From Prochlorococcus sp. MIT 1341 (GTDB lineage Bacteria > Cyanobacteriota > Cyanobacteriia > PCC-6307 > Cyanobiaceae), in NCBI RefSeq assembly GCF_034092415.1, contig NZ_CP139304.1, forward strand, positions 1,224,001 through 1,288,000: 64,000 nt of DNA, in the 5' to 3' direction. The notes beneath the pieces are model-generated. The model did no database searches, was not told where the DNA came from, and worked only from the letters and a program-made list of their open reading frames with translations. Every line of letters starts with the position of its first letter. Position 1 is the first letter of the stretch. Shown piece after piece: positions 8,194 to 14,169 of this stretch. The translations under genes and the position numbers were made by a program.

Positions 8194-8504
8194 GAGTTAC
8201 ACCCCTAAACGCTGTTTAAGTTATTTCATTTTGAAGGACTTGATGCTCTTTCTACAAAAGTCACGAAACCTCATATTCCTCTTAACAGTTCTCAAGATGT
8301 TTAAAAGACATGCTGCTACTAAAACAAAACTATCCGGACAATCAAGCAGTGGCAAATCTCGTGCACTACCTACTTAGTGACCAAATGAACACATTCTTCA
8401 TGCAATTAAGCACGCCATCCCTAATTTGCAGGAAAAAGGGTAAAAAGGCAATGCGTGTAAAAACTGATTGCGCTAAAGGCAAATAGAAGCGAGTCTTAAA
8501 ACAT
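8194..8504. other. Intergenic stretch upstream of argG, no supported gene
   Basis: The first part should hold the leftward argG promoter. A plus-strand ATG frame of 58 codons (8310-8486) exists, but it has no ribosome binding site, begins with a leucine run and ends in a lysine-rich tail. I do not call it as a gene. An A/T-rich stretch around 8490-8510 may be the promoter of the structured element that follows. Confidence 0.3.
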
Positions 8505-8521
8505 CAAATACGGAGGCGTCC

Positions 8522-8551
8522 ATGGACGACACGCCACCTGAGCATTTCTAG
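8522..8551 (+). other. Nine-codon mini-ORF inside a hairpin, with strong ribosome binding site
   Basis: ATG 8522 follows GGAGG (8512-8516) with a spacing of five bases, then reads MDDTPPEHF and a TAG. The GGAGG and the bases after it pair with 8531-8538, so both the ribosome binding site and the ATG would sit in one hairpin. This could be a leader peptide or a chance arrangement. The sequence alone cannot say whether it is translated. Confidence 0.3.
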
Positions 8552-8754
8552 AAGCAACCTTTTCTAGGCCCCTGCTCCAACAGTCTTAACTAAAAAGTGA
8601 GCTATTTCGTCTGGTGCGACAACTGAAGGCAAGTCAAGCCAGTCGACACTCCTCTGCATCGTTTAGGTGCCCTCAAAGGAGATAAGCTTTACACCTAAAA
8701 ACTTGGCCCCAGGCGCCACAATCTGGAAGCTTCAAAGCTGATTTTTCTAAAAAG

Positions 8755-8783
8755 CCGACTTCTCTAATCAGAGTCGGTTTTTT
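8755..8783. terminator. Strong, probably bidirectional intrinsic terminator
   Basis: CCGACT (8755-8760) pairs with AGTCGG (8772-8777). The stem extends to eight pairs with a one-base bulge, and six Ts follow on the plus strand (8778-8783). On the minus strand the same stem is followed by CTTTTT. It can therefore end both the rightward structured transcript and the leftward small membrane-protein gene, whose stop codon lies in the T-run. Confidence 0.8.
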
Positions 8784-8976
8784 AATGTGATCGCCAAAAA
8801 CCCGCAAACCAAATCCAAAAGGCCATCAGCAAGGAAGGCAAAAACAATAAAAGAACAATCAACCAAGACCTGATCAAAAAGGGTTCAGGATGCAATTGCC
8901 CCCAGACACGAAGCCCGAGGCTGCAAATAAAAGCAGCACCCCATAAAAAAAATAAGAGTATTAACTTAGTAATCAC
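8782..8976 (-). CDS. Small two-helix membrane protein, unknown function
   Basis: A 64-residue protein with a GTG start (8974-8976). It has two hydrophobic segments, about residues 3-22 and 38-60, separated by a short polar loop (RVWGQLHPEPF). Its stop codon sits in the terminator at 8755-8783, which supports it as a real transcript unit. I do not recognise a family. The ribosome binding site is weak. It is divergent from the DUF3134-like gene. Confidence 0.55.
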   Translation of the reverse strand: MITKLILLFFLWGAAFICSLGLRVWGQLHPEPFLIRSWLIVLLLFLPSLLMAFWIWFAGFWRSH

Positions 8977-10849: not shown

Positions 10850-12040
10850 ATGGAGCATAAAGCAAAAGTTCTTGAAATGCCAAAAACTCTCATGCTGCTT
10901 GGCAGTGGGGAACTTGGAAAAGAAATTATAATTGCTGCGCAACGTATTGGATGCATAACTATCGCATGTGATCGTTACAGGTCAGCTCCTGCAATGCAAG
11001 TTGCTGACAAATTTGAAATTGTGGACATGACCAATCAAGAAAGGCTTGAATATGTAATTAATAAACATAAACCTGACATTATTATTCCCGAAATTGAAGC
11101 CCTAGCCGTTGATTGCTTAAAAAGATTTGAGAAAGAAGGGATAACAATTATTCCAACAGCAAGAGCAACTGCAACAACAATGAACAGAGATCTGATTAGA
11201 GATCTAGCAGTTAATGAACTACAGCTAGAGACAGCAAAATTCAAATATGCTAATTCGGCAAAAGAACTAAAGGAAGCTGCTCAAGGAATTGGATTACCAG
11301 TTATCATCAAGCCGATTATGAGTTCTTCGGGTAAAGGACAAAGTTTAATTGAGAAGAAAGAAGATTTAGAACAAGGTTGGCAGAATGCAATACAAAATGC
11401 CCGAGGGAAATCTAAAAAAATAATTGTAGAGGAGTTTCTTAAGTTTGAACTAGAAATTACACTGTTAACCATAAGACAAAAAGATGGGTCGACTATTTTC
11501 TGTCCACCAATAGGGCACATACAAAAAAATGGAGATTATCAATGCAGCTGGCAACCAGCGAATTTAAAAGCTGAGCAACTTATAGAAGCTCAGGAAATGG
11601 CTAAAAAAATTACAGAAAATCTTGGTGGCACAGGCTTATTTGGAGTTGAGTTTTTTATTACCAATACAAAAGTAATCTTTTCGGAGTTATCACCTCGCCC
11701 ACATGATACAGGTCTAGTTACATTAATAAGTCAAAACCTGAATGAATTTGAATTACATATTAGAGCAATTCTAGGATTACCAATACCTAAAATTATAAAC
11801 AAACAAGCTAGCGCAAGTAGGGTAATTCTAGCTAAAAAGAAACTTAAAGATATTAGATATCAGGGGCTCGATGATGCGTTAAGAGATCCGAATAGCGAAA
11901 TATTACTGTTTGGCAAGCCTGATGCTAAGGAAGGGCGAAGAATGGGAGTTGCATTAGCAAAAGGTGAAAATATTATCGAAGCGTGCAATAGAGCTGAGAA
12001 GGCAGCTCAAACAATAAAAGTATTAGGAAGTGAATACTAA
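10850..12040 (+). CDS. purT: Formate-dependent phosphoribosylglycinamide formyltransferase (GAR transformylase 2)
   Basis: An ATP-grasp enzyme that makes formyl-GAR from GAR, formate and ATP in purine synthesis. The N-terminal domain has LMLLGSGELGKEIIIAAQRIG. The ATP-grasp part shows PVIIKPIMSSSGKGQS, and later GLFGVEFFITNTKVIFSELS and PRPHDTGLVTL. 396 residues matches PurT, and MSSSGKGQS and RPHDTGLVT point to PurT more than to PurK. It is separate from purL/purF at 25-29 kb. The last four bases overlap the end of the convergent sucrose-phosphate synthase gene. Confidence 0.93.
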   Translation: MEHKAKVLEMPKTLMLLGSGELGKEIIIAAQRIGCITIACDRYRSAPAMQVADKFEIVDMTNQERLEYVINKHKPDIIIPEIEALAVDCLKRFEKEGITIIPTARATATTMNRDLIRDLAVNELQLETAKFKYANSAKELKEAAQGIGLPVIIKPIMSSSGKGQSLIEKKEDLEQGWQNAIQNARGKSKKIIVEEFLKFELEITLLTIRQKDGSTIFCPPIGHIQKNGDYQCSWQPANLKAEQLIEAQEMAKKITENLGGTGLFGVEFFITNTKVIFSELSPRPHDTGLVTLISQNLNEFELHIRAILGLPIPKIINKQASASRVILAKKKLKDIRYQGLDDALRDPNSEILLFGKPDAKEGRRMGVALAKGENIIEACNRAEKAAQTIKVLGSEY

Positions 12041-14169
12041 CGAGTAGGAAGAAATCTATAGTGAGTTAATCCATCAAATACACTTTTTGCATGTGATCTA
12101 GAAGAAAAGAAGACTCGTTGTTGAGATCGAAAAGTCTCTAAACATGAATCATGTTCTGCTGGTATGACTGTAGATGTTAATCCTCTAACCAATTCAGCAT
12201 CGCCTTGTTGACTGGCAATAACCATCACGTTTTGAAGAGGCAAACCCCAACAAAGTGCTATATGACGTATTGCCTCAGTCCTTGACGCACGTAAAGGAAC
12301 TACATCTAAAAACCAGTGACATCTCAGATGGGCACAAGCAGCCTGACACTTCTGACGTAGACGTTTCTGCACTAATGAAAGAACATTCGCTCTGCTTTCT
12401 TTTAAAATATAACTAACTTTAAAAGGTCCTTGTTGACTCTGATCTTGCAAATTCAATTGCTGATCTAGATCCAGAAGATTCTTTTTAATATCATTACGGT
12501 TCCAATCAATAGATATATAGGACTCCCAAAATTGATCTACAGAATCATTAGATCCATAATATATTTCAGTTCCCGCTCTTGTGATCCAGACATTTGGCTT
12601 AGGTAAATGTAATTGTGCATAACGATGTCTTGCTACTTTAATAGATCTCCCTGAAATTATTCCAATAGCAGTTTGGTTCTGTTTTTGTAAAAAATCAAGT
12701 TTTTTACTAAAAGAGACAAGATCCTCTTCTTGCGAAGCTTCTAAAGTTGAATCTAGATCTAATAATAATAATTTACTTATCTGAAGATTAAACGTTTTTG
12801 TCTCACAAATCAAACTCGGTTTTGCAGGCATAACCTCTAGGTGCTGTTGCATTAATGCTAAATAATTACAAACATGCGCATCCCAACTAAAATGTCTACT
12901 TACTGCTTCTATACCATTATCTCTCCAAGACTTCCATTTCTTGACTTGTGATCCTGCTTGCTCTAAAGCATCCTGAAGTGAATCTAAATCTGTTACATCA
13001 GTAAGCAATCCATTTTCACATCTAGATAATATATCTCGAGGACCGCCATCATCTGTAGCTACAATAGGTAAGCCTGATGCGGCAGCCTCAAGCAATGTTA
13101 AACCAAAAGGCTCAGTAAGTGCAGGGTTTACAAATAATCCTTTTTTATGCGCAGCCCATCTATAAATTGCAGGAATTTGGTCTCGTCGATGATACTTAGG
13201 ATAAGCAACACGACCGTAAAGATCATAACGATCAACAAGATCAAAAACTTGTTGAAGAACCTCCCTCTGCTGTTTTTCTAATTGGCGTGGATCTTCTCTG
13301 CACCCTAAAATAAGAACTAAATTATTTCGTTGGCGCAAAATTGAAGATCTGCCATACGCCTCGACAAGAGCAGGTATATTCTTACGCCGAACAGCTCTAG
13401 AAATTGCAAGCAATGGGGGTAAAGAAGGTTCTCTAAGAAATGGAGCGACCAATTCATTAATCTGCGAATATTCTTTCTCTATTTGAACAGAATGAAAGCG
13501 AGTAGAATCAACACCAGGTGGGACAACCTCTGCCTGATTCGGAGAAAAACTGTCATAACGTGAATATTGTTGATTAGCTTCCTGAGCGGTACTTGTAATC
13601 ACAAGACTTGAATGTGCCAAAGCCAACTCTTCAGCATCAATACGTTTACTAATTGAATAAGTTTGTTCTATTTGAACATGATCAACACCTCCCGCTAATA
13701 ACCGCCTTTGCTTCTCACGACCCAAAGAATGAGCTGTAAATACTAACGGAATACCTAATCGACGGCTAACAAGTGATCCAACATAACCAGCATCCGCATA
13801 ATGTGCATGAATCCAATCCGGTAAAACAGTCTCCTTTTGCAAATAACTAACTAATTGATCTGCAAGATCATCTAAATAAGGCCAAAGCAACTCTTTTCGC
13901 AAATATCGTTTAGGACCAAAAGAAAACCGAAGAATATTTGAATCTGATGCGATTCGCTCAATAGGCTGAGCATAATCTGCTGAGACCCGACGATCATGAA
14001 TTAAACGAGTAACCAAATCTACTTGCTCTACTTCTGGACGAGAGGCCAAACCCTTAATCAATTCCAAAACATATAAAGTCTGTCCTCCAGTATCCGCATC
14101 TCTACCAAGCTCAAGATCATGCGAACGGAACAATCCATGGAGATTTAGATGAAGCAATCGCAAGCCCAT
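12037..14169 (-). CDS. spsA: Sucrose-phosphate synthase with C-terminal SPP-like HAD domain
   Basis: Makes sucrose-6-phosphate from UDP-glucose and fructose-6-phosphate; sucrose is a compatible solute in these cells. Residues 1 to about 460 form a GT4-type GT-B glycosyltransferase: LHLNLHGLFRSHDLELGRDADTGGQT at the start, HAHYADAGYVG, and FVNPALTEPFGLTLLEAAASG. Residues about 470-700 are a HAD/SPP-like domain. It keeps DLDST but in place of the GDSGND-type motif reads VMVIASQQGDAEL, as in plant SPS tails, so phosphatase activity is doubtful. Length of 710 fits the two-domain cyanobacterial SPS. ATG 14167-14169. Confidence 0.9.
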   Translation of the reverse strand: MGLRLLHLNLHGLFRSHDLELGRDADTGGQTLYVLELIKGLASRPEVEQVDLVTRLIHDRRVSADYAQPIERIASDSNILRFSFGPKRYLRKELLWPYLDDLADQLVSYLQKETVLPDWIHAHYADAGYVGSLVSRRLGIPLVFTAHSLGREKQRRLLAGGVDHVQIEQTYSISKRIDAEELALAHSSLVITSTAQEANQQYSRYDSFSPNQAEVVPPGVDSTRFHSVQIEKEYSQINELVAPFLREPSLPPLLAISRAVRRKNIPALVEAYGRSSILRQRNNLVLILGCREDPRQLEKQQREVLQQVFDLVDRYDLYGRVAYPKYHRRDQIPAIYRWAAHKKGLFVNPALTEPFGLTLLEAAASGLPIVATDDGGPRDILSRCENGLLTDVTDLDSLQDALEQAGSQVKKWKSWRDNGIEAVSRHFSWDAHVCNYLALMQQHLEVMPAKPSLICETKTFNLQISKLLLLDLDSTLEASQEEDLVSFSKKLDFLQKQNQTAIGIISGRSIKVARHRYAQLHLPKPNVWITRAGTEIYYGSNDSVDQFWESYISIDWNRNDIKKNLLDLDQQLNLQDQSQQGPFKVSYILKESRANVLSLVQKRLRQKCQAACAHLRCHWFLDVVPLRASRTEAIRHIALCWGLPLQNVMVIASQQGDAELVRGLTSTVIPAEHDSCLETFRSQQRVFFSSRSHAKSVFDGLTHYRFLPTR

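Follow-up and report, generated by a model that had tools for sequence, protein, structure and literature searches.

A Yfr103-family RNA gene of Prochlorococcus with a conserved micro-ORF: a probable dual-function RNA of the Cyanobiaceae

Results

A structured RNA gene beside argG

The window, that is, the whole 64,000-nucleotide stretch of Prochlorococcus sp. MIT 1341 DNA that was analysed, carries on its + strand a chain of hairpins, with argG lying upstream on the - strand and a convergent 64-aa ORF lying downstream. Upon reading and folding of the sequence, the hairpin chain, a Shine-Dalgarno (SD) sequence, a short ORF and an intrinsic terminator were all found where an earlier, sequence-only reading had placed them (Table 1). 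The near-ideal GGAGG described there is present, the nine-codon ORF reads ATG-GAC-GAC-ACG-CCA-CCT-GAG-CAT-TTC-TAG, the terminator stem ends in a T-run, and no + strand gene precedes it, as had been stated. This terminator, which is not listed by a simple scan with narrow loop and tail criteria, is possibly shared with the convergent gene. The latter (8782-8976, - strand) encodes a membrane-type protein without a Pfam match, is conserved alongside argG and mraY, and has its stop codon inside the terminator.

Folding of the + strand gave -80.2 kcal/mol, with a z-score of -2.16 relative to dinucleotide shuffles, whereas the - strand folded no better than its shuffles (z -0.50). The Rfam search proposed with the sequence-only reading was run: across the window, gathering thresholds gave a single RNA gene, a tRNA, no Rfam model matches the hairpin chain at gathering scores, and relaxed thresholds yield chance-level matches only. 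The earlier failure to match it to tmRNA, 6S, SRP or RNase P RNA therefore holds. Cyanobacterial tmRNA (cyano_tmRNA, RF01851) resembles it in its similar length, structured nature and internal short ORF, but the tmRNA of this genome is a separate gene (G000:C1:973855-974140).

The conserved element begins farther upstream than the interval considered previously, with an imperfect palindrome. Its start lies 54-57 nt upstream of position 1 of our covariance model (R1, see below) in 76 of 98 distinct members of the family, compared to 0/98 in a shuffled control, and in five genomes every occurrence of the palindrome pattern lies upstream of one of these RNAs. It is a probable binding site for a repressor or activator in the promoter of the RNA. 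The 5' end of the transcript is predicted at about 8506, since the distance from the palindrome fits a published spacing to the transcription start site (TSS), and the 3' end was placed by the hairpin scan at the terminator, giving a predicted length of about 280 nt. That the region of ~8503-8785 (+) is a structured RNA gene we regard as practically certain, as its conservation throughout the whole family takes it far beyond chance.

Table 1. Features of the RNA gene and its surroundings, in positions of the window
Feature	Position	Strand	Evidence or remark
Imperfect palindrome, GCAATGCGTGTAAAAACTGATTGC	8448..8471	+	Position relative to model, 98 members
Yfr103-family RNA, whole transcript	8503..8785	+	Covariance model, structure support, hairpin scan
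Shine-Dalgarno sequence, GGAGG	8512..8516	+	Tree changes per column: 5, 0, 1, 0, 1
Helix P1, SD with Thr-Pro-Pro codons, A.A mismatch	8512-8519/8531-8538	+	Covariation count
Micro-ORF MDDTPPEHF, 9 codons + TAG	8522..8551	+	Codon-position bias, NTG start, core frame
Helix P0, closes the RNA body, GAAGC/GCUUC	8551-8555/8729-8733	+	Pairing in 98.2% of cells; three sequences with a double change, AU to CG
Helix P6	8571-8574/8710-8713, 8577-8579/8704-8706	+	Hardly varies; a single double change, CG to UA (L015)
Invariant stretch CTGCTCCAAC, overlapping P6 in part	8572..8581	+	Identical in 55/55 sequences (alignment A2)
Helix P2, weaker part	8597-8599/8692-8694	+	
Helix P2, inner	8600-8603/8685-8688	+	All four pairs with double changes; 90.9% of cells paired
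Hairpin P3	8607-8620/8633-8646	+	Double changes in 9/11 pairs; 92.8% of cells paired
Hairpin P4, outer	8649-8653/8677-8681	+	Double changes in three of five pairs
Hairpin P4, inner cap	8656-8660/8666-8670	+	Almost invariant
Intrinsic terminator incl. T-run	8748..8784, stem 8748-8760/8772-8784	+	Sequence reading, hairpin scan

The RNA is a member of the Yfr103 family

The passages on Yfr103 in PMC5069720 describe it, with reference to Voigt et al. 2014, as the non-coding RNA of highest abundance in marine Synechococcus and in Prochlorococcus MIT9313, with an enigmatic function, a strongly conserved secondary structure and an imperfect palindrome at -29 to -58 relative to the TSS. According to the same passages, Synechococcus CC9605 harbors seven paralogs of 290-328 nt, homologs are listed in WH7803, RCC307, SS120, NATL and MIT9303/9313, the RNA responds to light and temperature, and in a Red Sea metatranscriptome its paralogs made up 55% of the CC9605 primary-transcript (mdRNA-Seq) reads (PMC5069720).

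We are highly confident that the hairpin chain represents a Yfr103 copy, an identification made from the published description. It follows from three matches: a genome with seven copies, a palindrome at the published distance, consistent with a TSS near 8506, and a match in a listed strain, WH7803. Specifically, a 2,510,659-bp genome, which we take to be that of Synechococcus CC9605, contains seven full-length R1 matches (118-206 bits), equal in number to the published paralogs, and one degenerate 102-nt fragment at G215:C1:1172076-1172177. Family matches were also found in each of the genomes that we take to be MIT9313 (one copy), SS120 and RCC307. As to length, all ends being predicted only, the window's copy is estimated at ~280 nt, slightly shorter than the 290-328 nt published for the CC9605 paralogs, the presumed MIT9313 copy at 304 nt, and those copies assigned to CC9605 in which a terminator was detected at 329-367 nt. 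The RNA resembles Yfr103 in strain range, copy number, palindrome distance and strong conserved structure, and roughly in its predicted length, and differs in that this copy sits between argG and mraY in another genome. The suggestion that the locus encodes a stand-alone RNA stood, but the RNA is not new, as it matches one already published (PMC5069720).

A DNA search detected the RNA in 316 of 400 Cyanobiaceae genomes and in 50 of 59 genera, and R1 detected members in 37 of 38 chosen genomes of the family, several of them lacking a DNA match, high-light-type Prochlorococcus and Cyanobium-type genomes among the 37. Hits to named genomes include Synechococcus WH7803, Prochlorococcus MIT 0701 and Cyanobium. 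R1 scores the window's RNA, which is part of the model, at 235 bits, with an E-value of 1.3e-71 across the searched loci, and a high-light-type member at 62 bits (E 4e-17). The latter keeps the palindrome and an ORF (MIDSLPEISE), and we infer that the genomes carrying it are high-light Prochlorococcus. By these sequence matches, members in high-light Prochlorococcus and Cyanobium-type genomes are new relative to published Yfr103. When R1 was applied to 194 genomes of the class, good scores were obtained only within the same family, with nothing above noise outside it; candidate members beyond the family had E-values of at least 4e-4 and were taken as chance. No copies were found in phage records, nor in viral contigs with one exact pattern. 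The Yfr RNAs of Prochlorococcus MED4 offered no obvious counterpart of the high-light member by published sizes and neighbours.

About 22 of 97 loci share the neighbourhood of argG, the 64-aa gene, a DUF3134 gene and mraY, and the remaining members lie in many different contexts, often in several copies. Such varied contexts and frequent multiple copies fit a trans-acting RNA better than a leader. A leader-peptide attenuator or riboswitch for an adjacent gene, to which the order of SD, short ORF, hairpins and terminator would classically point, is accordingly largely refuted, there being no same-strand gene downstream and a convergent one after the terminator.

Several arrangements of copies were observed. 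The genome of the window itself has a second, diverged but colinear copy at G000:C1:569684-569914 (-), equivalent to L004 1477-1707 (-), which likewise has a palindrome, a terminator and an ORF (MIDTPPEYQIEAN) of its own, and similar copies occur in related genomes (L041, L042, L050, L112, L115). Locus L046 holds identical direct copies (949-1199 and 11836-12086) that flank ~10.6 kb encoding GAPDH, an MFS transporter, a PBP-superfamily (phosphate-type) binding protein and an alternative oxidase; a comparable pair of copies is seen in many other genomes, of genus g56, and may mark a recombination site. Three tandem copies spaced by exactly 450 nt lie at G076:C1:2267988-2269132. Finally, a contig labelled as a Bifidobacterium breve MAG (CALPNT020000051.1) matches the RNA pattern (L154 3173-3279), and this record is probably mislabelled or contaminated.

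Covariation supports a nested fold of the RNA body

Because the fold returned by RNAalifold on a MAFFT alignment was poor, a nested structure was drawn by hand after aligning 55 members (alignment A2), and then tested. It comprises P1 at the 5' end, the closing helix P0, P6, P2 and the arms P3 and P4 (Table 1). Standard pairs occupy 94.5% of its pair cells, compared to 33-43% after shifting one strand by 1-3 columns; the paired percentage leans in favour of the structure, since it was drawn from the same sequences as were scored. Changes on both sides were found in 19 of 46 pairs, against 9.1 in shuffles, and the covariation score was 0.149 versus 0.072. The fold is thus supported by covariation, the double changes in P2, P3 and P4 being harder to explain away, and the compensating changes among relatives that the sequence-only reading had proposed to look for do occur.

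Two other pairings were rejected. The obvious inverted repeat TTTAGGTG/CACCTAAA (8662-8669/8692-8699) is probably not the main fold, as it is broken in several relatives and competes with covarying helices. RNAalifold also suggested that the SD pairs with a CUCC of P4, but the changes in P4 (CTTC/GAAG, CTCTT/AAGAG) compensate inside P4 while GGAGG stays fixed. We observed a module, AAGGATCAATGATTTAGGTGC, in the P3 loop of many copies (L028, L030-L032, L045, L046, L049), with a near copy forming a separate hairpin downstream of the body in a high-light-type member (L084 ~1727-1749); it is possibly an exchangeable RNA module.

The first codons of the micro-ORF are under coding-type selection

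An SD (GGAGG or a close variant) and a start codon are in place in all 98 distinct members, counting L138 (GGAGACCTCCATGGACGACACGCCG), in whose sequence GGAG...ATGGACGACACGCCGCCT is seen. The encoded peptides follow the pattern M-(x)0-2-[D/E/N]-T-P-P-[E/Q/R/N/G]..., with the core [D/E]-T-P-P-E in essentially all 98. Most ORFs span 13-14 codons (range 7-27), and in the window's clade a one-nucleotide difference gives a TAG at codon 10.

We counted codon changes on a tree made from the RNA outside the ORF. In the D-T-P-P codons, 7, 4 and 53 changes fell on positions 1, 2 and 3, respectively. Part of this signal falls on bases that pair in P1; the bias is also seen at the Asp codon, beyond the limits of P1, with 2, 0 and 10 changes. 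At the start codon (NTG), base 1 changed nine times and bases 2-3 never. Relative to the SD and the 5' end, the start moved 34 times, whereas its distance to the core changed on nine occasions, always by whole codons where the core is intact. The core is in frame with the start in all members except one frameshifted sequence, and in high-light members M(I/V)DSLPE is retained but encoded by different codons. The codons near the stop carry no signal of coding-type selection. Two near-identical copies (L189 and L191) of the seven in the genome taken as CC9605 have a one-nucleotide deletion that breaks the frame (MTAEPHLS...), and both still keep the SD and CCCCACC.

These data demonstrate coding-type selection on the first ~7 codons of the micro-ORF, and we consider it likely, judging from this pattern of substitution, that the micro-ORF is translated. 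We found no description of the conserved micro-ORF; the passages in PMC5069720 call Yfr103 non-coding, to which the present analysis adds the micro-ORF.

The Shine-Dalgarno sequence can pair with its own codons

The first hairpin had been proposed to hide the SD. In part this stands: a CC-N(1-2)-CC motif, pairable with the SD, is found in all 98 members compared to 28% of shuffles, and it is kept even where the peptide has lost Pro-Pro. In part it does not, the P1 hairpin being no more stable than shuffled controls. One P1 pair alone covaries (8517/8533, with CG, AU, UG and GU types), and three of the six scored pairs never vary. A modest burial of the SD is therefore what the folding makes plausible. 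Ribosome stalling at Pro-Pro was weakened as a universal mechanism by the high-light members (DSLPE) and one Synechococcus subtype (DDGPTE), which lack Pro-Pro.

Discussion

The sequence-only reading had offered a stand-alone regulatory or dual-function RNA, and the covarying stems, together with an ORF conserved as coding sequence, lend this support. The Yfr103-family gene is, on these sequence comparisons, probably a dual-function RNA, combining a trans-acting structured body with a translated micro-ORF. It has its own putative promoter with a private palindromic site, a predicted transcript of about 280 nt and an intrinsic terminator; a translation start (GGAGG, 5 nt, ATG) forms the 5' end, followed by the body of P0, P6, P2, P3 and P4, which would act in trans as an abundant structured RNA.

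Translation of the micro-ORF would be weak or conditional, given the potential pairing between the SD and the Pro-Pro codons. An initiating ribosome would have to open P1, and it would finish on or beside the upstream (5') strand of P0, the closing helix: most members have an ORF that extends across this strand to a TGA, and in the window the TAG touches it. Translating the ORF and keeping the body closed would therefore compete physically, and the fold of the body would in this way become coupled to the supply of ribosomes. Pro-Pro pausing could strengthen the competition, though not in all members. We offer such translation-coupled folding as a tentative proposal. Equally speculative is the broader statement that this abundant, so-called non-coding RNA is a translated dual-function RNA, its DTPPE core kept across the Cyanobiaceae, in which translation of the first codons, by ribosome pausing or by opening of P1 and P0, might control the fold or activity of the body.

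A purely non-coding Yfr103, whose RNA binds a protein or mRNA and whose ORF is an accident of the pairing between GGAGG and CC.CC, seems unlikely to us. Such an RNA would explain why CC.CC is kept in the GPT and SLP types and in the frameshifted copies assigned to CC9605, many other bases of the RNA are invariant too, and Yfr103 was published as non-coding (PMC5069720); yet it fails to predict an NTG start that varies at its first base alone, a start-to-core distance that changes by whole codons, or changes at the third position of the Asp codon, which is unpaired. We think it improbable that the RNA is an initiation decoy, in which a strong SD and a very short ORF bind or cycle ribosomes and so damp translation during light or temperature shifts: an SD and start at the very 5' end of all members, along with the very high abundance and the light and temperature response described in PMC5069720, would suit it, but the conserved peptide core and the elaborate covarying body are left unexplained, and every member has an SD able to pair with codons of its own ORF. 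Less credible still is a small mRNA whose sole product is the micropeptide, the rest being an untranslated 3' region, for although the first codons are conserved in a coding-type manner, the ORF is followed by a covarying structure of about 180 nt, the peptide tail is unconstrained and some copies are frameshifted. Least tenable of all is the attenuator or riboswitch dismissed above on its gene context.

A dual-function Yfr103 would work like SgrS/SgrT, RNAIII and VcdRP, which likewise combine a small ORF and a regulatory body in one RNA, although those RNAs have longer ORFs (VcdP, 29 aa; delta-hemolysin, 26 aa) and known regulatory targets. Closer in organism are Yfr6 and Yfr9 of Prochlorococcus MED4, structured RNAs proposed to have both a small ORF and an RNA function, whose peptides of 33 and 44 aa are overlapped by antisense RNAs (PMC2518516, PMC1242208). 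The Yfr103 ORF, in contrast, lies at the 5' end and has 9-14 codons, and no relationship to them was found or is claimed.

The structure and covariance model described here could become an Rfam family, which is missing at present. For an abundant RNA of enigmatic function, the selected micro-ORF is a first tangible lead: ribosomes are predicted to occupy a known site, single-base mutants would separate translation from structure, and there is a way to ask whether this RNA senses or tunes translation in light and temperature shifts.
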